DNA from: Corallococcus macrosporus DSM 14697
GTDB taxonomy: Bacteria; Myxococcota; Myxococcia; Myxococcales; Myxococcaceae
Direction of reading: 5' to 3'
Length of the DNA stretch: 64,000 bases
Assembly (NCBI RefSeq): GCF_002305895.1
Contig: NZ_CP022203.1
Span: 310,001 to 374,000 of the forward strand
Below the pieces are notes generated by a model that was given only the letters and a program-made list of their open reading frames with translations, had not been told where the DNA came from and searched no databases. Shown here one piece after another: positions 17,345 to 49,664 of this stretch. A program made the translations under genes and the position numbers. Numbering within the stretch: the stretch's first letter is position 1; each line of letters opens with the position of its first letter.

Positions 17345-18445
17345 TCAGTCCGCGCGCCTGCCTTCACCGCGTGTCAGGAGGATGGCGGCGGGTTGCCCCG
17401 CATCCGAGAGCGAGCCCAGCAACGTGCGCTCGCCGCTCGCATGGCCCCTGAAGAATCCCCAGGCCGCCGCCGCGAGCGACACCGGCGCGGAGGCCGTGCC
17501 CGTCTCTCCCAGCGAACTCGCGAGATGCAGGACGCGGCAGCGTGAAGGGTCCAACTGCTCGGCGAGCAGCACCTGGGCATGGCCCCAGGCCTGCGCCCTC
17601 CAGGCTTCTCCGTTGAGGTCGAGGTAGAGGTCTCCCTGGAAGCGCTGCGTGGCCGCGGGGAGGACGCGCTGGATGGACTCCGCGAGCGCGCGTCCAACCT
17701 GAGCGAGCGTCGCGCCCACGGCTGGTAGGCCGCTCAGCGCCACGGCATCCACCTGCACGGCCGATGCGCTGCCCCGCTCGCGGGCCGTTACGGGACGCTC
17801 CACCAGGATGGCGGCTCCGGCTTCACCCGGCATGAGGCCCACCTGCCGCTGGGGAGACTTGAGCCGCCGGTGGTGGGCGAGCCACGCGAGGCTCTCCGGG
17901 TCCACGTAGGAGTCCGCGGCCAGCACGAGCACCCGGTCGACATCCCTGGAGGTCAGCATGGCCTCCGCCTGTTGGAGCGCCGCCGCCAGGCCGCAGTGCC
18001 CCAGCGCGAGCGCCCGCGTCGTGTCCTCTCTGAGGGGGACGTCCATGAGGGACACGAGGGGGTGCAGGTAGAATGTCTCGAGCGCACCGGGCAGCGTCTG
18101 GAGCGACCAGCCGAACCGCGCCTCGTCGATGAGCGGCGCCAGGGCGATGAGCCCGGTGCGGTGCCAGAAGCGGGCGTCCGTGGAGGAAGGCATCGCGGCG
18201 GCGTCGCGGAGGTCGTCGAAGGCGCCTGACGCCAGCCGCACCCAGGCACCCGTCTGGTAGAACCCATCCGCGAAGGGTGCGGCGGGAAAGCCGGTGACGG
18301 GGACGGCTTCGCCCGGCTCGTCCTCGACGGTGAAGGCCGGGAGGGGCCTGGGCTGGGAGAGGCCCGCGCGCAGCGCGGTGCAGGTCCCCACGACGCCATG
18401 CCCCACGGAGGTGACGAGCCCGAGCCCCGTGACAGCGAGCTTCAC
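17345..18445 (-). CDS. Ketosynthase-like (thiolase fold) protein of a T6SS cassette
   Basis: A 366-residue protein of the beta-ketoacyl synthase fold, starting MKLAVTGLGLVTSVGHG. The segments VDRVLVLAADSYVDPESL and LMPGEAGAAILVERP match the fold. A cysteine in LGHCGLAAALQQAEAML sits where the catalytic Cys is expected. The two active-site His motifs (EAHGT and GHT..AAG) appear as NGEAWRA and LGETGTAS, so the enzyme is likely not a normal condensing enzyme. Similar proteins occur beside DUF4150/PAAR-like genes in type VI secretion effector islands, where their role is unclear, and that is the context here. Its ATG overlaps the stop of the Imm49-like gene by 4 nt. Confidence 0.75.
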   Translation of the reverse strand: MKLAVTGLGLVTSVGHGVVGTCTALRAGLSQPRPLPAFTVEDEPGEAVPVTGFPAAPFADGFYQTGAWVRLASGAFDDLRDAAAMPSSTDARFWHRTGLIALAPLIDEARFGWSLQTLPGALETFYLHPLVSLMDVPLREDTTRALALGHCGLAAALQQAEAMLTSRDVDRVLVLAADSYVDPESLAWLAHHRRLKSPQRQVGLMPGEAGAAILVERPVTARERGSASAVQVDAVALSGLPAVGATLAQVGRALAESIQRVLPAATQRFQGDLYLDLNGEAWRAQAWGHAQVLLAEQLDPSRCRVLHLASSLGETGTASAPVSLAAAAWGFFRGHASGERTLLGSLSDAGQPAAILLTRGEGRRAD

Positions 18446-19254
18446 GGATTCCTCCCTGGGACGTCCGTCGCGCCGTGGATGGAGGTGACGCGCTGCCGCC
18501 AGGACGCTGGAGGCGGCAGCCGGGCGCGGTCGAGGCGGCGGGCCACGGAGGGGGCCAGCGGGTAGTGCTGCTCGGTGGGCAGGCGCGCGCGCCCGGCCAG
18601 CCGCAGCAGCGCGAGGACCTCCACGGAGAGGTGGGCCGTGGTGGCGGCGTCGTCAGGGGAGAGGCGCTCGGCTTCGATTCGCTTGCGCAGCTCGCGGGTG
18701 CGGACGTCCAGCAGGAGGCTCAGGCCCTCCTCGAAGCGCTGGGCGTCCGCGGCGACGAGCGCCTGACAGAGTGGGAGCCGCGCGTCGTCGCGTGCTGTCG
18801 GCAGGCCCTCGTAGCGGCTCATGGCCGCGTCGAGCCGGGCGGTGGGGGCCGCGAGGGTGAAGCGCTCCATGAGGATGCGGACGTAGAGGAAGTCGTCCTC
18901 GTATTCCTCGCCCGGGTTCCAGGTGGCGCGGGAGTGCTGGGCAATCTCACGCTCTGCCTCGGTGTCTCCGCAGGCGATGGCATCGAAGTAGGGCTCGGAG
19001 CGGCTCGTCGTCTTGGTGGAGTCGTCAGCGCCCTGGAGGAAGAAGAGGAAGGCGCGCGCCGAGCGGGAGAGCTCCTCGAAGAGGCCGTCTGGCAGGCCGG
19101 AGAGGAAGAGCTGGGCGATGCCCATGCGCCGGTAGAGGGCGCAGACGCTCATCATCTGGGCCTGGGTGACTTGCCGGGTGAGGACTCTCGGCAGGACCAT
19201 TTGGAGCTGGAGGAGGCTGTTCTTCTCGATGAGGGGCAGGGGCGTTCGCACCAT
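18442..19254 (-). CDS. Imm49-like immunity protein
   Basis: A 270-residue, largely helical cytoplasmic protein resembling the immunity 49 family (long alpha-helical repeats; segment YEDDFLYVRILMERFTLA and DAQRFEEGLSLLLDVRTREL). Imm49 proteins are linked with nuclease toxins in polymorphic toxin systems. It lies two genes downstream of an AHH-type nuclease and directly after an Imm11-like gene, so the cassette appears to carry two immunity types. The second may protect against a toxin from other strains (an orphan immunity gene). The start is the ATG at 19254, and the frame ends in a 4-nt overlap with the ketosynthase-like gene. Confidence 0.7.
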   Translation of the reverse strand: MVRTPLPLIEKNSLLQLQMVLPRVLTRQVTQAQMMSVCALYRRMGIAQLFLSGLPDGLFEELSRSARAFLFFLQGADDSTKTTSRSEPYFDAIACGDTEAEREIAQHSRATWNPGEEYEDDFLYVRILMERFTLAAPTARLDAAMSRYEGLPTARDDARLPLCQALVAADAQRFEEGLSLLLDVRTRELRKRIEAERLSPDDAATTAHLSVEVLALLRLAGRARLPTEQHYPLAPSVARRLDRARLPPPASWRQRVTSIHGATDVPGRNP

Positions 19255-19281
19255 GGCGGGGCGGGCGTTCGTCGGAGCAGC

Positions 19282-19851
19282 TCAGGCCTGTTCCAGCCTG
19301 GTGAGGTAGACGTTGGTGGGGTTGAGCTGTTGCAGTTCGTCCACCAGCTTGTGGCTCAGGACGTAGACGTAGGGGTCCTCCTTGATGCGGAAGAAGTCCG
19401 GCGCCGAGCGGAGCTTCTCCGTGGAGAGGACGTGGTTGTCGATGCCAATGATTTCTCCTGGCATCTCTTTGGAATACTCGATGTCGCTTTTTTCGAGATG
19501 CAGGCAGTCGAAGGTACCCAGAGGGTTGATGATGAAGTAGTCCCGGCTGGCGACCTGCCCCTTGTGGTCGAGCAGGGTGAAGTTGAGGCACTCCATGGGG
19601 ACTCCGGTGCGCTCGAAGACTTCCTTCAGGGCTCGCTCCACCACGACATAGTGAGAGGCAATGAGCGAGGCCAGCTTGCCTCCACCATACTTGCTGCTCA
19701 TCTGCCACACTGCATCTGGGGGATATTTGTCCCCCATGGGGTAGCCCTCTGCGAGGCGGTGGCTGAACATCCTCAAGCCCTTGGGCTCGCGCTCGAGCAT
19801 GCAGAGGCTGCGGTCAACGGTGGGGCCTCGGGTGAGACTGAAGTAGTCCAT
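19282..19851 (-). CDS. Imm11/DUF1629-like immunity protein
   Basis: A 189-residue soluble protein of the imm11 (DUF1629) type. Supporting segments are FTLLDHKGQVASRDYFIINP in the centre and FRIKEDPYVYVLSHKLVDEL near the C-terminus, the latter typical of the family. Imm11 proteins are immunity partners of secreted toxins, often in type VI islands of Myxococcales. The toxin gene ends 6 nt upstream, so this is the best candidate for its cognate immunity protein. Base composition here is clearly lower in GC than the flanking genes, with runs such as CTTTTTTCGAG, supporting acquisition by transfer. Start ATG at 19851. Confidence 0.78.
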   Translation of the reverse strand: MDYFSLTRGPTVDRSLCMLEREPKGLRMFSHRLAEGYPMGDKYPPDAVWQMSSKYGGGKLASLIASHYVVVERALKEVFERTGVPMECLNFTLLDHKGQVASRDYFIINPLGTFDCLHLEKSDIEYSKEMPGEIIGIDNHVLSTEKLRSAPDFFRIKEDPYVYVLSHKLVDELQQLNPTNVYLTRLEQA

Positions 19852-19857
19852 GGCGTT

Positions 19858-20745
19858 CTAGCGGCGAGGGAGCTTGGGCATGTCGGAAATAGGTTCGCCG
19901 GGGTTTGTTTTTCCGAATGACGTGACACTGCGGTAGCAGGTTCTTGAGAGCTTCTCGAGTTCCTCTTTGGAGAGCTTGAATTCTGACGTGTCGCAGTTCT
20001 TGCGGAGTTCCGCGTCGCAGGCTTTCGCGTAGCGGTTGATGATGGGCTCAAGCCTGTCCTGGACGTTCCAGTTGTAGCCCAGATGGTCGAACTTGGGACT
20101 GCCCTCAACCATCCAGGAGCCATCTTCCAGGATGAGGTGCCGGGGGAGTCCCAGGACACGGGCGACCTCCAGGTCCTGGGGCAGGATGATGACGTTGATG
20201 TGGTGGTTGATGTTGTAGCCGGCGCGCAGGAGCGCCAGTCGAATCAACGTCTGGCAGTCAGCATCTTCAATCTCCGCGATGGTCTCATTGAAGAGCCCCT
20301 TGGGAATCAAGTGGTGCGAGTTGTGCCAGTACGGCCACGTATGCTTCGAGAAGTTCTGTCCACGGGGAATGGGCCTGCCCGCGGCATCCTCCATGTTGTC
20401 GCGGGTGGGGCCGTCCAGGTGCCAGTCGCCCGGCTCCGGCAGACGGATGACCGCGCCATACTGTCCTGGATAAAGGTTCCCCCGGTTGCTCAGGTACGCC
20501 GACGTGGCCAGCAGCCCCATGGGGGCGGGCTTCTGCCGGGCTCCCGCGGTGGGGGTCTTGTTGTAGAGCGCCGTCCGGTTCTGCTTCGACTCCGTGAGCG
20601 CCTGCCAGCGGTATGAGCAGGTGCTGGGGTCGAGGCTGGAGTCATGCCCCGTCAGGCACGCGCCACCCTCGGTGTTCTCCTTCACCACCACGTGAGGGCA
20701 GGTGCCGTCTGGGTTGATGACGTGTTCGTCGGTGCTCTTCCCCAT
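19858..20745 (-). CDS. AHH-type nuclease effector (T6SS cassette)
   Basis: A 295-residue protein with an AHH/HNH-like motif NSHHLIPKGLF (His144, His145) followed by INHHINVIILPQD, as in AHH-type nucleases of polymorphic toxins. The N-terminal 130 residues hold Cys-rich stretches (C16, C30, C43) of unknown role. No signal peptide is visible, and the PAAR-like DUF4150 gene starts 24 nt upstream, so delivery by a type VI spike is the likely route, as a separate cargo protein rather than as a C-terminal extension of the spike. An immunity gene of the Imm11 type follows 6 nt downstream. DNA cleavage is inferred from the motif. Confidence 0.72.
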   Translation of the reverse strand: MGKSTDEHVINPDGTCPHVVVKENTEGGACLTGHDSSLDPSTCSYRWQALTESKQNRTALYNKTPTAGARQKPAPMGLLATSAYLSNRGNLYPGQYGAVIRLPEPGDWHLDGPTRDNMEDAAGRPIPRGQNFSKHTWPYWHNSHHLIPKGLFNETIAEIEDADCQTLIRLALLRAGYNINHHINVIILPQDLEVARVLGLPRHLILEDGSWMVEGSPKFDHLGYNWNVQDRLEPIINRYAKACDAELRKNCDTSEFKLSKEELEKLSRTCYRSVTSFGKTNPGEPISDMPKLPRR

Positions 20746-20769
20746 GGCGCTCCTCCGTGCCGTGCCTTG

Positions 20770-21237
20770 CTACTCCACCTTCTCCTTGCAGATGAGGCAG
20801 CACGGCTCACCCGCTTCTTTCCCCACCGCCACCACGGGAGGCTGGATGAGTGGAAAGGGCGGCGTGTTCTTGTCGTTGTGCAGCATCAAGTCGAAGGCCC
20901 GCGCCACGTTCTTCCCTTCGAACTTCACGTCGAAGGAGTAGTTGACGAACTCCGCCTTGCCCTTCGTCTTCCCGGAGGCCACGCCGCCACCGGCCGTGCC
21001 GGCTTCATCTCCGGTGCTCGTGCTGAAGTTCGAGTCCTTCAGGCACGCGGGATTGCCCTCCACGGACACGGTGCTGCTGCCCTGCGCCGTGTCCGCCGAG
21101 CGCGCGACATTGGGATAGGGAATGGGGACGGGCCCCGCCGGGCTGGGCGTCTTGCACACGTCGGGGAAGGCCACCGTGGTGCCGTTGCTGCCCTTCGTCA
21201 CCACGGACATCTTGTTCACGCCAACGGTGTTGCCCAT
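20770..21237 (-). CDS. DUF4150 PAAR-like protein
   Basis: A 155-residue PAAR-like protein of the DUF4150 family. It has the typical features of this group: VAFPDVCKTPSPAGPVPIPY near residue 30, PYPNVARSADTAQGS, and a conserved Gly-rich middle (STGDEAGTAGGGV). DUF4150 proteins cap the VgrG spike of type VI secretion systems and carry effectors encoded beside them. It starts MGNTVGVNKMS at 21237. It follows the TIGR02270 gene by 21 nt and is upstream of the toxin, so the order is spike, toxin, immunity. No VgrG or core T6SS genes are in the window, so this is an orphan effector island. Confidence 0.88.
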   Translation of the reverse strand: MGNTVGVNKMSVVTKGSNGTTVAFPDVCKTPSPAGPVPIPYPNVARSADTAQGSSTVSVEGNPACLKDSNFSTSTGDEAGTAGGGVASGKTKGKAEFVNYSFDVKFEGKNVARAFDLMLHNDKNTPPFPLIQPPVVAVGKEAGEPCCLICKEKVE

Positions 21238-22944: not shown

Positions 22945-24309
22945 ATGCGCTCTCCCGCCGTCTCTCCCCCTCTGGCCTCCACGCCCGCGCGCTCCGCGTC
23001 TCGCCTCTGGGCGGGGCGGGTGCTGCTCTTCGTGGGCTTCTTCGCGGCCCTGGCGGCGTTCCCCGTCTACACCCCCTTCGACTCCAAGCTGACGCTCCCC
23101 ACCACGCTGTCGTTGCTGCGTGAGGGGAACATCGACCTGGACGAATACGCGCCCACCTTCGCGTCGTACCGCCACGGCCTCTACGAGCGCGACGGCCACC
23201 TCTACAACTACTTCCCCCTGGGGCCCTCCCTGGCCGCCGTGCCCATGGTGGTGCTGGTGGATGGCTTCGTGCGCCTCGCCACGCCAGCGGGCAATCTGCA
23301 TCCCGCCCTGGCGCACTGGCGCCACATCTACGACGCCACCGGCAGCGTCGACCTGGATGCGTGGAACGGCCCGCAGCGCCTCTTCGCCTCCGCGCTGGTC
23401 GCGCTCGCGGGCGTCGTCATGTTCGTGCTGGGCACCGCGCTGCACCTGTCCCGCCAGCGCGCGCTCCTGCTCGCCGCGCTCTTCGTCTTCTGCACGCCGC
23501 TGCTCTCCACCGCCAGCCGCGCACTGTGGCAACACGGCCCCTCGCTGTTGTGCCTCACCTGGGTGCTCCTCTGCCTCGTCCGCGCGCGCGAGGCGCCACG
23601 TCACGCGGCCTGGGCCGGCCTCCCCCTGGCGCTCGCCTACGTCATGCGGCCCACCAACAGCCTCTCCGTGCTGGTGCTGTCGCTCTACGTGCTGTGGACC
23701 TGGCCCCGTCAGGCCTGGAAGTTCTTCGCGGGCGCGCTCGTCGTGGCCATCCCGTGGGTGACGGTGAACCTCGTCCACTACGGCTCCTTCCTGGCGCCGT
23801 ACTACGAACCGCAGCGCCTGGAGTTGTCCGCCTCGCGCGTGGCCGAGGCCCTCGCCGGCAACCTCGTGTCCCCCGCGCGCGGGCTGCTCGTCTTCACCCC
23901 CGTGCTCCTCATGAGCGCCTGGGGCCTGTGGATGGACCTGCGCGCCCGGACCTTCACCCGGCTGCATGCCGCGCTGGTGACGGTGGTGGTGCTGCACTGG
24001 GCCGCCATCTCCACCTTCCCGCATTGGTGGGCGGGGCACTCGTATGGTCCGCGCTTCTTCTCGGACATGGTGCCGTACCTCGTCTTCTTCCTCGTCCCCG
24101 TGGTGCGCGCGCTCCAGTGGAAGGGCCCCGAGGCCCGCCGCGGCCTGACGGCCACCTTCACGGTGCTCGCCGTGCTGAGCCTCGTGCTCCACATCCACGG
24201 CGCCAGCTCGCGCGCGGTGTACCGGTGGAACAGCCTCCCGCTCGACGTGGATACGCACCCGGAGCGGCTCTGGGACTGGTCCGACCCGCAGTTCCTCGGC
24301 CGACGCTGA
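22945..24309 (+). CDS. Multi-pass membrane protein, GT-C/GT39-like
   Basis: A 454-residue integral membrane protein with roughly ten hydrophobic helices, resembling GT-C glycosyltransferases (the PMT/GT39 type). Seen are an N-terminal helix (RVLLFVGFFAALAAFPVYTP), a first loop after helix 1 with acidic residues (NIDLDEYAPTFASYRHG), and a loop near the C-terminus with FPHWWAGHSYGPRFFSDM. Acidic and Trp residues in the first large loop are typical of the family. The likely job is transfer of a sugar from a lipid-linked donor at the periplasmic face; the substrate is unknown. Start ATG at 22945. It ends 6 nt before the convergent ligase stop. Confidence 0.72.
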   Translation: MRSPAVSPPLASTPARSASRLWAGRVLLFVGFFAALAAFPVYTPFDSKLTLPTTLSLLREGNIDLDEYAPTFASYRHGLYERDGHLYNYFPLGPSLAAVPMVVLVDGFVRLATPAGNLHPALAHWRHIYDATGSVDLDAWNGPQRLFASALVALAGVVMFVLGTALHLSRQRALLLAALFVFCTPLLSTASRALWQHGPSLLCLTWVLLCLVRAREAPRHAAWAGLPLALAYVMRPTNSLSVLVLSLYVLWTWPRQAWKFFAGALVVAIPWVTVNLVHYGSFLAPYYEPQRLELSASRVAEALAGNLVSPARGLLVFTPVLLMSAWGLWMDLRARTFTRLHAALVTVVVLHWAAISTFPHWWAGHSYGPRFFSDMVPYLVFFLVPVVRALQWKGPEARRGLTATFTVLAVLSLVLHIHGASSRAVYRWNSLPLDVDTHPERLWDWSDPQFLGRR

Positions 24310-24315
24310 GCGGCG

Positions 24316-25266
24316 CTACCCGCCGCGCGCGTGCCTCACCAGCGCGCGCGTCAGGTGCCCCGCCACGTCCGTCCCGCCGCGCGCGTCGAAGCCCAGGAAC
24401 ATCGCCGAGCCGTTCAGCTCCAGGAAGCGCGGCACGCCGTCCGCGTCCCGCTTCAGGTCCATCCCCGTCCAGCGCAGGCCCAGCACCTCGCAGGCCTTCA
24501 CGCAGTCGCGGGTCAGCTCGGGTGGCGGCGTCACCGGCTCGATGACGGCTTCCCGCTGCCGGAAGTCCAGCGACGGCGAGGTGATGCGCAGGCTCGCGAT
24601 GACTTCGCCGTCCAGCACGTACACGCGCAGGTTCTCCCCCGGCAGCAGCTCCTGGAAGGTGACGGGCGCGGCGGCCAGCGCCGCGAGTCGTTCATCCGCG
24701 AGGTCGGCTTCACGCAGCTCCCGCGTCGCCGCGCCGCCGGTGACGGGCTTGTAGACGGTGCGTCCTTCCCGCGCGAAGCGGCGCACCGCCTCCGCGTCGT
24801 TCGTCCAGAGCGTCCGGGGCACCGGGAGCCCCGCGGCCTGGAGCGCGGCGAGCTGCGCGGGCTTGTGCAGACTCCAATCCGAGGACGGCGGGTTGTAGAG
24901 CGGCACGCCCATCCGCTCCCAGCGTCCGAGCAGGCCCGACAGCAGCGCGCTCTTCTCGCGGAACGCGGTGAGCGTGGTGCGCCAGTCCGCGTCCATGTGC
25001 TCCCGGGCGTCCACCCCGAAGGCCAGCGGATGGCCGTGCAGGCCGCGCACATATACGGCCGCGGGGCGCCCCACCTCGCGCCCGTCCACGACGATGCCGT
25101 CCAGCGTCTCCGTGAGCGACAGCCGCGTCCGTTCGGGAAAGGCCCGTGTGTCCACCACCACCGTGTCCACGGTCTCGGCGCGAAGCCGGCGCGCGACCTC
25201 CTGGACATGGGCGTCGTCACGCGCGCCCAGCAGCACCACCGCGCCTGTTCGTGTCACGGGCATCAT
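24316..25266 (-). CDS. RimK-like ATP-grasp ligase, putative graspetide macrocyclase
   Basis: A 316-residue ATP-grasp protein (starts MMPVTRTGAVVLLG; two ATGs are adjacent, the second at 25263). Features of the fold are RTVYKPVTGG (ATP-binding Lys region), VTFQELLPGENLRVYVLDGE, GMDLKRDADGVPRFLELNGS (metal-binding Asp/Glu/Asn) and an N-terminal DDAHVQEV-like domain. These match RimK-type ligases including the plesiocin ligase PsnB group. It lies 105 nt downstream of a 50-codon gene with a TTxxxxEE core, so it probably forms omega-ester (or amide) links between Thr and Glu side chains in that peptide. GGAG sits 3 nt before the second ATG. RimK-like peptide or protein ligase of another kind remains possible. 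Confidence 0.8.
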   Translation of the reverse strand: MMPVTRTGAVVLLGARDDAHVQEVARRLRAETVDTVVVDTRAFPERTRLSLTETLDGIVVDGREVGRPAAVYVRGLHGHPLAFGVDAREHMDADWRTTLTAFREKSALLSGLLGRWERMGVPLYNPPSSDWSLHKPAQLAALQAAGLPVPRTLWTNDAEAVRRFAREGRTVYKPVTGGAATRELREADLADERLAALAAAPVTFQELLPGENLRVYVLDGEVIASLRITSPSLDFRQREAVIEPVTPPPELTRDCVKACEVLGLRWTGMDLKRDADGVPRFLELNGSAMFLGFDARGGTDVAGHLTRALVRHARGG

Positions 25267-25272
25267 CTCCAA

Positions 25273-25431
25273 CGGTGGTCCGAGGGGACGCGCCAACGTC
25301 GGGGCTCACCACCGCCGCCCGTCTCTTCGTCGGCCTGCAGCGTGGTCACCAGCGGTGGTCCAAGGAGGGCGCTAACGTTGGAGCTCGCCGCCGTCGCCCG
25401 TCTCTTCCCCAACCTGCATCGTGGTCACCTG
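25273..25431 (-). repeat. Imperfect tandem duplication (about 80 bp x2) of the precursor core
   Basis: Two direct copies of 80 bp (25273-25352) and 79 bp (25353-25431) are about 80 percent identical by hand alignment, with one indel. The upstream copy on the coding strand (25431 to 25353) encodes the C-terminal core of the precursor peptide, including its stop. The second copy carries the same TTxxxxEE motif, as VTTLQADEETGGGG, but in the +1 frame after the stop, ending at a TGA that overlaps the ligase start. The longest identical blocks cover the Thr-Thr and Glu-Glu codons. No separate start with a ribosome-binding site precedes the second copy. Confidence 0.75.
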
Positions 25432-25524
25432 ACCTGTCTCTTCCCGACTCGGCTCAGGGGGCGTGGGGCCCCAGTCCTGGATGAACAGCGCGGGCGGCGG
25501 TCTGGGCGGAGCGTTCTCTGGCAT
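25372..25524 (-). CDS. Graspetide (plesiocin-type) precursor peptide
   Basis: A 50-residue peptide gene. A strong ribosome-binding site (GGAGG, 4-nt gap) precedes the ATG at 25524. The N-terminal leader is Pro-rich and contains LFIQDWG (residues 13-19), similar to the short hydrophobic leader motif that graspetide ligases recognise. The C-terminal core holds TTMQVGEE (residues 34-41), an exact fit to the TTxxxxEE motif of plesiocin-like omega-ester-containing peptides, where Thr hydroxyls are linked to Glu carboxylates. The ligase gene follows 105 nt downstream on the same strand. Only one in-frame core is present, unlike plesiocin with several. Identification rests on motif and context; product structure is not known. 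Confidence 0.72.
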   Translation of the reverse strand: MPENAPPRPPPALFIQDWGPTPPEPSREETGQVTTMQVGEETGDGGELQR

Positions 25525-25745: not shown

Positions 25746-27041
25746 ATGAAAGCTCTTGCCCTGCGTGAGGACCGCTTCCTTGACGTGCTCCGGCGGCTCA
25801 TCGCCCTGACCCCCAAGCTGCAGAACAACCCTGGCGCCGGGCTGGTGCCCGAGGAGCGGCTCGCCGCGCAGGTGGTGCTGGACACGCTGGCGCCGTACAT
25901 CGAGAGCGGCTTCATCCAGGCGGAGTCCGTGGCCGGCCCGGGCCAGGCGGCGCGCCCGTGCCTGGTGCTCACCGTGCCGGGCGAGGGGGAGGGCGCCATC
26001 GGCTTCGTCGGCGCGCACTTCGACGTGGTCCCCGCCGACCAGAAGGCGGAGGGCTGGGCGCGTGACCCCTTCACGCTGTGGCAGGGCCCCGGCGGCGTGC
26101 TCTACGGGCGCGGCGTCACCGACTGCCTGGGGCACGTCGCCGTGCTCACGGACCTGCTGGCCCAGCTCGCCGAGCGCAAGGTGCGCCCCAGCCGCACGCT
26201 CAAGGTGGTGCTCATCTCCAACGAGGAGTCCTCGGAGCTGCCGGGCCTGGGCCTCAACTACGTGGCCGAGCAGGGCCACCTCAAGCCACTCGACGGCCAG
26301 CCGGTGTACTGGCTGGACAGCGCCAACTTCGGCCCCACCCTGGGCACCGCGGGCGTGTCGCTGTGGGAGCTGAAGGTGACGGGCGTGGGCGGCCACTCCG
26401 GCATGCCGCAGAACTGCGTCAACGCGCTGGAGCTGGGCATGGCCGCCTCGCTGGAGCTGGCCCGCTTCTTCCACGCGCGCTTCCCGCCCACCGAGGACGA
26501 GCAGCGCTGGGGCTTCCTGTCGCCCTCCAGCCTCAAGGCCACCGTGGTGGAGGCGCCCAATACCAAGGAGACGAAGGTGCCCGCCGACGTCGTCCTGCGC
26601 GGCGACATCCGCCTCACGCCCTTCTACGACCTGGCGGAGGTGCAGCAGGCGGTGACGGACTTCATGGCGGCGCTCGACGCCCGCCTGGCGCGCGATGACG
26701 CCCCCGCGCACTTCCCCCGCACCCGCACGGCGGGCGGCAAGCGCGGCGAGCTGGCCTTCCGCTTCCAGGGCACGGGCACCGAGGGCATCGCCTGCCGGCT
26801 GGACTCGGAGGGCCTGCGCGCGCTCAAGGAGGCCATGCAGGTGGTGCGCGGCGTGGCGCCCACGCCCTTCTCGCTCACCGGCTCGCTGCCGCTGGTGAGG
26901 GACCTGCAACGCCAGGGCTGCGACGTCCAGATTACCGGCTTCGGGGACATGCAGTACTACCACGCCCCCAACGAGCAGGCCCGGCTGGAGGACTTCCGGC
27001 AGGGCTTCGCCATCCTCCGCGAGCTGCTCGTCCGCCTCTGA
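25746..27041 (+). CDS. M20-family amidohydrolase, acetylornithine deacetylase-like
   Basis: A 431-residue zinc hydrolase of the M20 family (ArgE/DapE/CPG2 group). Metal-site motifs are GAHFDVVPA (His first ligand), GRGVTDCLGH (Asp bridging) and ISNEESSE (Glu pair). A dimerisation-lid region follows with VGGHSGMP, and FGDMQYYHAPNEQAR near the C-terminus includes a final His ligand. It is the type annotated as acetylornithine deacetylase, which releases acetate from N-acetylornithine in arginine synthesis, but other amide substrates are possible. Start ATG at 25746. It is divergent from the graspetide locus and followed by a large inverted repeat; I see no other arginine genes nearby. Confidence 0.8.
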   Translation: MKALALREDRFLDVLRRLIALTPKLQNNPGAGLVPEERLAAQVVLDTLAPYIESGFIQAESVAGPGQAARPCLVLTVPGEGEGAIGFVGAHFDVVPADQKAEGWARDPFTLWQGPGGVLYGRGVTDCLGHVAVLTDLLAQLAERKVRPSRTLKVVLISNEESSELPGLGLNYVAEQGHLKPLDGQPVYWLDSANFGPTLGTAGVSLWELKVTGVGGHSGMPQNCVNALELGMAASLELARFFHARFPPTEDEQRWGFLSPSSLKATVVEAPNTKETKVPADVVLRGDIRLTPFYDLAEVQQAVTDFMAALDARLARDDAPAHFPRTRTAGGKRGELAFRFQGTGTEGIACRLDSEGLRALKEAMQVVRGVAPTPFSLTGSLPLVRDLQRQGCDVQITGFGDMQYYHAPNEQARLEDFRQGFAILRELLVRL

Positions 27042-46376: not shown

Positions 46377-49300
46377 TTAGAGGGACCAGCCCAGCGACGC
46401 GCTGAAGGCGACGCCGGGCTTGTACGACTGCACGACCACCGAGTCCTGGCGGAGCGTGACGGAGGAGTTGAGCAGGTTGGCCGCGGTGAGCTTGAGCTGC
46501 GCGGAGCCGAGCTGCTGGGCCACGGAGATGTCCAGGCGGTGGAAGGGGCGCTCGTAGACGTCGGGGAGCCGCTGGACGCCGACCTCGCTGATGCGCGGGC
46601 CGTAGACGTTGTAGAGGACGGTGAACTCGGTGCCGCTTCCGGGCCGCTGGTAGCCGACGTTGAGGTTGATGACGTAGGGCGACTGGCCCTGGAGCGGCCG
46701 GCGCCGGTTCGTCTGCGCGCCGACGACGTTGTCGCCCAGGTCCACCTCGGACTGGATGAGCGTGAGGTTGGCGCCCACGCGCACGTCACGCAGGGACTCG
46801 GTGAGGCGCCCCAGGGAGGCGCGGGCCTCCAGCTCCAGGCCGTAGGTGTCCGCGCCGGCGGCGTTCCGGTAGGTGAGGTCCTGCGCCTCCGGGTTGTTGA
46901 TGACGCGCTCGATGGGGTTGACGAAGCGCTTGTAGAAGGCGCTGGCGGCCAGCACCTCGTTCTCACCCGCGAACCACTCGACGCGCGCGTCCACGTTGTG
47001 GATGCGCGTCTGCTCCAGGTCCGGGTTGCCGGACACGTTCCGGCGGCGCACGAAGTCGAAGTAGATGAAGGGCGCCAGCTCGCGGAAGGTGGGCCGCGCC
47101 AGCGTGTAGCTGTAGCCGGCGCGCAGGTTCACCGTGGGGGTGAGCGCGTAGATGGCGTTGAGGGCCGGCAGCAGGTTCGCGTAGTCGGCGCGGTTCTCCG
47201 TGTCAGCGGCGCCGGTGAACGGGTCCTTGAGCGTCAGCACCTGGTGGGAGGACTCCAGGCGCAGGCCGCCCACCAGGCGCAGGGCCTCCAGGGGCTGGGT
47301 GTCCGCGGAGACGTAACCGGAGAAGACGCCCAGGTACGCGTCATACGCGTCATCGGCGCGGGTGGAGTCGCGCACGGTGATACCGGTGCCCAGGTTCTCC
47401 GGCGCGAAGAGCTGCTCGGGCGGGAGCGTGCGGTCCACGGGCGTGTTGCCCAGGATGTAGCGGAAGCGGCGCGCGTTGAAGTCGCGGAAGGACACCTGGG
47501 CCAGGCCACCGGCCTTCAGCTTCACGGCGGACAGGGGCAGGGTGAGGTTGACGGTGCCGCCCGTGGACGTCTCCCCCAGCTCGGCGAAGAAGCGCTCGCC
47601 GCTGTTGGGCTGGTTGGGGAAGGTGGGGAGCGCGCCGGGGACGTTGAAGTTGCTGCTGTAGAGCGTGTCGCGGGTGTCCGGCTCGTCACGGTCGACGCGG
47701 GACACGTTGGCCTGCCAGTCCAGCTCCGCGTCGCCCAGCAGCCCCAGGCGGTGGAAGCCGCGGAGCTGGTTGAAGAAGAGCTGGCGGCTGACGAACTGGA
47801 GCCGCGTGCTCTCGTAGCGCTCGGTCCGGACGAGGTTGTTGGCCGTCGCCGTGTGCGTGCGCGTGTCGGTGCCGCGGGTGTAGAGGCCGAACCAGGTCAG
47901 CTCGTTGTCGCGGTCCAACTGGAAGCCCACGCTGCCCAGGCCGCTGAGGCTGGCCGTCTCGAAGCCCTGCGTGTTGTTGGCCGACTCGAAGGCGTAGAGG
48001 GTGTCCGTCTCGTCGCGGGAGGCGCGGGCGAAGGTGCCCTCCTGGACGCCGTCGCGGTGGCCGTAGTTGGCGCTGGCCAGGTAGCCCAGGCGGCTGTTGC
48101 CGAAGCGCAGGGTGTCACCCACCGACACGCCCAGGCCCATGTTGGGCAGCGCCGTGGTGCGGCGGGCCTGCCAGATGTTGGGGAAGCTGCGGTACTGCTG
48201 CGCGAGCACCTCGCTGGACTCGCCGGAGGCGCCGAGCTGGCTGTCGCGCGGAATCGCATTGGGGAGCTGGCGGCTGCTGCTGGGGAAGCCCAGCGCCTCG
48301 CCGAAGCCGCCCTGGCGCTGGCTGTTGCGCTCGCGGAACGTCGTCACGGAGTCGCCGCCCAGGCTGATGCGCGGCTTGAACTCGAACTCGCTGGGGTAGG
48401 AGTTGGTCTCGATGAGCAGCGTGCCGCCGCCGAAGGTGCCGGGCAGGTCCGGCGTGTAGCTCTTCACCACGTTGAGGTTGGCGAGCAGGTTGGTGGGGAA
48501 GATGTCCAGCGGGACGCTGGGCTCGTCCGGCTCCGGGCTGGGCAGGAGCGCGCCGTTGAGCAGCGTGGTGCTGTAGCGGCCACCCAGGCCGCGCAGCAGC
48601 ACGTAGCGGCCGTCCACCACCGTGGCGCTCACCACGCGCTTCACCGCGTCGCCGGCGCTGGAGTCCGGCGTGCGCGCGATTTCCTGCGCGCTGATGGCGT
48701 CCGACACGGCGGCGGCCTTCCTGCGCTCCTGGAGCAGCGCGCCCTCGGCCCGGCGGTCCGCGCGGGCCTCGACGACGACCTCCTGCACCGCGCCTTCGTC
48801 CGCGCCCAGCGCGACGTCCAGCCTGGTGGCCTTGCCCTTGTTCACGATGACGCCGGTGATGCGGCGGCCCTGGTACACGTCATAGAAGACGCGCAGGTCG
48901 TACTTCCCGGGCGGCAGCGCCACCCGGTAGAAGCCGTCCAGGTCCGTGAGCACCTGCTTCTGCGCGCCGGTGACGACCTTCACGGTGGCCTCGATGAGGC
49001 CCTCGCCGTTGGCCTCGTCCGTCACGCGGCCGTGGATGCCGGTGAAGCCCGGGGGCGGCACGGCGGACTCGGCCAGCATCGCCTCGTCGCCCATGTCTTC
49101 CATGGATGCGTCGGCGGGCGCCGCGGGCTGCTGCGCGGTCGGGTCGGCCTCGGTGCCGGGCTGCGCGGCCGTCGGCGCGGGAGTGGCACCCGGCTGCTGC
49201 GCGGTGGGCGCCGTTTCGGTGCCAGGCTGCTGCGCGGTGGGCGCCGTTTCGGTGCCAGGCTGCTGCGCGGTGGGCGCGGTCTCCGTGCCCGGCTGCTGCG

Positions 49301-49664
49301 CAGTAGGAGCAGGAGCAACGCCCGGCTGCTGCGCAGTAGGCGCAGGCGCAACGCCCGGCTGCTGCGCGGTAGGAGCAGGCGCGACGCCCGGCTGCTGCGC
49401 GGTGGGCGCTGCGGGCTGCTGCGTGGACGGATCAGTCGCGGCGGGCGTCTGCTGCGTGGACGGCGGTTGGGATTCCTCGGGTTCAGGAAGCGGTTGCGTG
49501 ACGGGGTCGACCGCGGGAGCGGGAGCCGAGCCCGGAACGCCGGGCGCCTGCGCGAAAACAGGCGTAGCTGTCATGACAAGCGCGGCCAGGAAGGCGCGCA
49601 AGGGGGCGGTGCGAGACAACACGACACTCCTTGCCGAGGTGCGCGTAGAGAACGCGACACGCAT
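46377..49664 (-). CDS. TonB-dependent receptor
   Basis: A 1095-residue outer membrane receptor. The signal peptide ends near residue 40 (LVMTATPVFAQA). A Pro/Gln/Thr repeat linker follows (residues 87-185). A carboxypeptidase-like regulatory domain (residues about 205-285; FTGIHGRVTDEANGEG and DLDGFYRVALPPGKYDLR) is next, then a plug domain (residues about 310-430; RVVSATVVDGRYVLLRGLGGRYS) and a beta-barrel to a C-terminal ASLGWSL. It moves a substrate across the outer membrane using energy from the TonB-ExbBD complex encoded upstream. The substrate is unknown. It has the long N-terminal form common in myxobacteria and Bacteroidetes. ATG at 49664 is the first start after the ExbD gene. Confidence 0.9.
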   Translation of the reverse strand: MRVAFSTRTSARSVVLSRTAPLRAFLAALVMTATPVFAQAPGVPGSAPAPAVDPVTQPLPEPEESQPPSTQQTPAATDPSTQQPAAPTAQQPGVAPAPTAQQPGVAPAPTAQQPGVAPAPTAQQPGTETAPTAQQPGTETAPTAQQPGTETAPTAQQPGATPAPTAAQPGTEADPTAQQPAAPADASMEDMGDEAMLAESAVPPPGFTGIHGRVTDEANGEGLIEATVKVVTGAQKQVLTDLDGFYRVALPPGKYDLRVFYDVYQGRRITGVIVNKGKATRLDVALGADEGAVQEVVVEARADRRAEGALLQERRKAAAVSDAISAQEIARTPDSSAGDAVKRVVSATVVDGRYVLLRGLGGRYSTTLLNGALLPSPEPDEPSVPLDIFPTNLLANLNVVKSYTPDLPGTFGGGTLLIETNSYPSEFEFKPRISLGGDSVTTFRERNSQRQGGFGEALGFPSSSRQLPNAIPRDSQLGASGESSEVLAQQYRSFPNIWQARRTTALPNMGLGVSVGDTLRFGNSRLGYLASANYGHRDGVQEGTFARASRDETDTLYAFESANNTQGFETASLSGLGSVGFQLDRDNELTWFGLYTRGTDTRTHTATANNLVRTERYESTRLQFVSRQLFFNQLRGFHRLGLLGDAELDWQANVSRVDRDEPDTRDTLYSSNFNVPGALPTFPNQPNSGERFFAELGETSTGGTVNLTLPLSAVKLKAGGLAQVSFRDFNARRFRYILGNTPVDRTLPPEQLFAPENLGTGITVRDSTRADDAYDAYLGVFSGYVSADTQPLEALRLVGGLRLESSHQVLTLKDPFTGAADTENRADYANLLPALNAIYALTPTVNLRAGYSYTLARPTFRELAPFIYFDFVRRRNVSGNPDLEQTRIHNVDARVEWFAGENEVLAASAFYKRFVNPIERVINNPEAQDLTYRNAAGADTYGLELEARASLGRLTESLRDVRVGANLTLIQSEVDLGDNVVGAQTNRRRPLQGQSPYVINLNVGYQRPGSGTEFTVLYNVYGPRISEVGVQRLPDVYERPFHRLDISVAQQLGSAQLKLTAANLLNSSVTLRQDSVVVQSYKPGVAFSASLGWSL
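49110..49406 (-). repeat. 33-bp in-frame tandem repeat (about nine units) in receptor gene
   Basis: On the reverse strand the receptor gene has about nine 11-codon units of the form PTAQQPGVAPA or PTAQQPGTETA, spanning residues 87 to about 185. The period is 33 bp and the copies vary mainly in the second half of the unit. It makes an extended disordered linker between signal peptide and the first folded domain. Copy number may vary among strains by slippage. Confidence 0.8.

Follow-up and report, generated by a model that had tools for sequence, protein, structure and literature searches.

Among the graspetides closest to the system described here, plesiocin is tetravalent and consists of four repeat units (PMC12291112), while loci of the chryseoviridin type carry tandem duplications of whole graspetide precursors (PMC8939145). 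We analyzed a plesiocin-type locus from Corallococcus macrosporus DSM 14697, contained in a stretch of 64,000 nucleotides (the window), in which the precursor has a single core and is followed by a second, out-of-frame copy of that core. On the minus strand, a GGAGG ribosome-binding site (25533–25529) lies ahead of the precursor open reading frame (ORF), which is followed by repeat copy 2 and then by the ligase from about 25263. In that order, the features are:

25372–25524, minus strand: gene for a plesiocin-type graspetide precursor of 50 aa; leader motif ALFIQDW, single core VTTMQVGEET (translation; the same arrangement upstream of the ligase in 14 orthologues; apparent purifying selection on the core relative to L003 and L004, its two nearest orthologues).
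25350–25428, minus strand: repeat copy 1, 79 nt, comprising the core, its TAG stop and a further 22 nt of spacer (repeat search, Tandem Repeats Finder, copy alignment).
25270–25349, minus strand: repeat copy 2, 80 nt, an out-of-frame relic of the core (VTTLQADEETGGGGEPRRW...) with TGG at the TAG-equivalent position and no stop there (repeat search, copy alignment, codon comparison; no match continuing into copy 2 at orthologous loci in other family genomes).
25263–25349, minus strand: 28-codon open frame running through copy 2, with a GTG start lacking a Shine-Dalgarno sequence, no leader motif and a TGA that overlaps the ligase ATG; judged not to be a gene.
24316–25263, minus strand: PsnB-like ATP-grasp ligase (graspetide synthetase), 315 aa (match to a PDB 7drm chain; RimK Pfam and TIGR04187 partial scores).

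Both genes have the hallmarks of the plesiocin type. The ligase, whose candidate starts are ATG 25266, ATG 25263 and GTG 25257, matches the 7drm chain, which we take to be the plesiocin macrocyclase PsnB, over residues 8–311 (E 5.4e-95); its domain is a RimK-type ATP-grasp according to Pfam, TIGR04187 gives a partial score, and its orthologues in the family are 65–89% identical. The adjoining ORF, translated as MPENAPPRPPPALFIQDWGPTPPEPSREETGQVTTMQVGEETGDGGELQR and ending at TAG 25374–25372, contains TTMQVGEE, a TT-x4-EE core that appears as TTMxVGEE in the 14 orthologues. Its leader carries ALFIQDW, a segment of the LFI/LFV type, presumably the recognition segment, and the orthologues have LFIRDW, LFVRDL, LFVKDL, LFITEL, LFVRGL and the like. 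The ligase is intact, and relative-rate tests (for which the PMT rows, misaligned by an indel, were ignored) give it a rate equal to that of its relatives; the precursor–ligase locus is therefore probably still being used. A longer tree branch had suggested relaxed selection on the ligase in the window lineage, an idea that was discarded because the same tests gave it no support. The pair is flanked by a PMT_2-like membrane protein (22945–24309, plus strand) and by a divergent M20-family peptidase (25746–27041, plus strand), both of which are kept in L003–L006.

Two other loci were noted elsewhere in the window. A polymorphic-toxin cassette on the minus strand (18442–21237) encodes a Tox-PAAR-like protein (20770–21237), an AHH-family nuclease (19858–20745) and Imm11 (19282–19851), all identified with Pfam, together with an Imm49-like protein (18442–19254) that has a sub-threshold Pfam score. 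A 33-bp tandem repeat of 8.6 copies (49117–49409) encodes an APTAQQPG-type linker near the N-terminus of the product of an ORF at 46377–49664 (minus strand), which looks like a TonB-dependent receptor; this region is likely to vary in length.

At the graspetide locus, Tandem Repeats Finder reported a repeat at 25269–25429 with a period of 79, 2.0 copies, 80% matches and a score of 210, and a second repeat search of the window recovered the same repeat. The two minus-strand copies are arranged head to tail and align with 15 mismatches and one gap, that is, with differences at 16 of 80 columns. Their local score is 47, compared with at most 21 for randomly chosen pairs of segments of the surrounding 2 kb; the repeat is confirmed as real, far beyond chance. 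A first-pass annotation, made from the letters alone, had described adjoining 80-bp and 79-bp copies, and this description stands apart from a shift of 3 nt in the limits, whose phase is arbitrary. It had also correctly placed the core and stop in frame in the first copy, which is in frame within the 50-aa ORF, and VTTLQADEE, with its Thr and Glu pairs, after the stop in a different frame. Read in frame +1 after the precursor stop, copy 2 spells VTTLQADEETGGGGEPRRWRVPSDHRWR, which includes this motif, and the reading frame ends in the TGA that overlaps the ligase ATG. A translated second ORF was considered and rejected, since neither GTG 25349 nor TTG 25412 has a convincing ribosome-binding site or leader motif, and no promoter-like sites were found between the copies.

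We consider it very likely that the repeat has an ordinary origin: a tandem duplication of the tail and spacer of a single-core precursor, seen only in this lineage and now decaying. This explanation draws on the repeat itself, the reading frames, the comparison with orthologues and the derived changes in copy 2. About 80 bp of a single-core plesiocin-type precursor gene would have been duplicated, probably by replication slippage or unequal recombination, with a unit that begins at the first core codon (GTG ACC ACG), takes in the stop codon and ends immediately short of the ligase start. The second copy would have been untranslated as a core from the outset and would now be a spacer between precursor and ligase that drifts without coding constraint, and the precursor and its ligase would still yield one two-ring (TTxxxxEE) graspetide, presumably cross-linked by Thr-to-Glu esters. 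The period, whether 79 or 80, is not divisible by three and the repeat unit contains a stop codon; therefore, copy 2 was out of frame from birth. It follows that the single-base difference between the copies is not the cause of the frame of copy 2, which was never in the product of the precursor unless further indels were gained and then lost.

We sought the ligase in 96 genomes of the family and found 14 loci of the window's genus (L003–L008 and L011–L018; window excluded) with a recognizable precursor just upstream of it. All 14 upstream precursors have a single TTMxVGEE core and none has the repeat, which answers in the negative whether the second core is in frame in some relatives, as the first-pass annotation had asked. 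Core-like sequence was likewise absent from the spacers of these 14 orthologues, with local scores of 5–13 compared with 32 in the window. In the four nearest loci (L003–L006), the core ends in LQR followed by a stop whose codon position matches that of the window. When the whole precursor-to-ligase stretch was used as a DNA query against the 96 family genomes (position 1 being the precursor start), only the precursor part (query 1–149) had a match at the orthologous locus in each of the four nearest species, and copy 2 had none there. Five loci have a single-core precursor elsewhere in the locus (L021, L024, L026, L027 and the Sorangium locus L040). Two loci of the same genus, L009 and L010, encode ligases 75–76% identical and have no recognizable TT-x4-EE precursor in the locus sequence examined; they may have lost the precursor, or it may have diverged or be encoded at another site. 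A further record, titled 'Comamonas sp. KCTC 72670' (L033), carries this myxobacterial locus with a ligase identity of 83%, and its name looks wrong.

The distance between precursor stop and ligase start is 2–12 nt in L003–L006 and 108 nt in the window, as would be seen if copy 2 were an untranslated spacer that alters the translational coupling of the two genes, yielding more precursor per ligase, and had been kept for that. However, more distant members of the genus have spacers of 55–154 nt and unrelated sequence, which argues that length is tolerated rather than selected. The repeat region also has no special RNA structure, its folding being no stronger than that of shuffles (z = 1.1), and we regard a selected spacer as very unlikely.

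The direction of change can be read from the nearest relatives. The codon at the stop position is TGA in the relatives, TAG in copy 1 and TGG in copy 2; because the relatives carry a stop there, the stop is ancestral and the TGG of copy 2 is derived. Similarly, M, V, G, D, L and Q of copy 1 are common to L003 and L004, whereas L, A, D, G, P and R at these positions occur only in copy 2. Compared with the nearest relatives, all six amino-acid replacements and the TGG are thus derived, on the copy 2 side. The first-pass annotation had proposed the reverse, a precursor with two or more cores that was cut to one by a frameshift and a TGG-to-TAG change. Such an ancestor would account for the Thr-Thr and Glu-Glu retained in copy 2 and would resemble plesiocin with its four repeat units (PMC12291112), but it has no multi-core orthologue, L003–L006 share the position of the stop and the derived states sit in copy 2. 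A one-base change from 80 to 79 cannot explain the loss of frame either, as neither length is a multiple of three and neither could have put copy 2 in frame. Cores of a multi-core precursor share one reading frame, whereas copy 2 lies after the TAG in frame +1. With 14 of 14 orthologous upstream precursors single-core, the tetravalence of plesiocin does not make a multi-core state ancestral in this subfamily, and we give a two-core ancestor slightly less credence than a selected spacer.

Substitution patterns differ between the copies. Between copies 1 and 2, pN is 0.163 and pS 0.247 (pN/pS about 0.66), compared with 0.024 and 0.462 for copy 1 versus L003 and 0.049 and 0.300 versus L004 (pN/pS 0.05–0.16). 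Nonsynonymous and synonymous changes stand at about 6.5:3.5 between the copies, 1:6 versus L003 and 2:4 versus L004. With about 10 changes in 18 codons, and hence little power, these values suggest purifying selection on copy 1 and, for copy 2, evolution free of constraint. In copy 2, the codons of both Thr and both Glu residues have escaped change (chance P = 0.05 for 16 differences placed randomly on 80 columns). The longest identical runs (13, 9 and 9 nt) do cover Thr-Thr and Glu-Glu, as had been claimed at first pass, but one 9-nt run falls in the spacer, and a run of at least 13 nt is expected in 60% of random placements. Preservation of the motif, which was chosen after the fact, is at best marginal and too weak an argument for function. 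Selection on the motif in copy 2 was therefore rejected, with no support beyond P = 0.05. Of the alternative first-pass suggestion, a decaying second core, the decay stands, but copy 2 at no time served this precursor as a working core.

These patterns also bear on a +1 ribosomal frameshift near the TAG, by which copy 2 would be fused to the precursor in a minor two-core product. In frame +1 no stop occurs between 25424 and the TGA at 25263, which gives an overlap of about 50 nt with the precursor end, and the sequence CGT TAG C bears a superficial likeness to sites where a +1 shift takes place at a stop. Going by general knowledge of prfB-type shifts, however, CGT-to-GTT offers no slippery re-pairing, and the RNA fold (z = 1.1) is unexceptional. 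A programmed shift would have a conserved and constrained downstream frame, whereas no relative has a downstream core and copy 2 lacks coding constraint, leaving this explanation with a very slim chance. Equally slim is the chance that a second, minor peptide, two-core or leaderless, is produced by rare +1 frameshifting at the precursor stop or from a separate start inside copy 1 and is likewise cross-linked by the ligase, in which case the out-of-frame duplicate would be an evolutionary half-step to a multi-core precursor. An assembly or sequencing artefact is the least probable of all: although only the finished sequence of a single strain lies behind the repeat, there are differences between the copies at 16 of 80 columns, which a duplicated-read or assembly error would not produce, and the assembly is a single contig of 8.97 Mb with 100% completeness.

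Returning to a lineage-specific duplication of the precursor tail, its age can be roughly bracketed. L003 and L004 are nearer to each other than to the window, so the duplication occurred either on the window's branch or before the split with one subsequent loss; with one strain of the window species compared, either a gain in the window lineage or a loss in the L003/L004 branch fits. Synonymous divergence is 0.25 between the copies and, between the window and its nearest species, 0.21–0.23 in the ligase and 0.30–0.46 in the core. On these rough figures, from 14 synonymous sites, the duplication is not very recent; it may be about as old as the split, or younger.

Overall, the locus reveals no new system and corrects the direction of change suggested by the raw sequence. 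On a small scale, it illustrates cleanly how tandem duplications the size of a core come about in a graspetide precursor and what makes most of them fail: the length of the duplicated unit has to be divisible by three, and the stop codon has to be absent from it. Like plesiocin (PsnA2/PsnB), the system has a single ligase, which matches the 7drm chain over its whole length, and a TT-x4-EE core, but it has one core where plesiocin has four repeat units, and its repeat lies outside the reading frame. It shares gene order, the LF[IV] leader, one core and a same-strand downstream ligase with the single-core TTMxVGEE precursors of Myxococcus and Pyxidicoccus (L003–L008 and L011–L018), which lack the duplicated 79/80-nt unit present in the window. 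As in chryseoviridin-type loci, precursor sequence has been duplicated; there the duplications comprise whole precursors, whereas here the unit comprises the end of the core and the spacer, out of frame.
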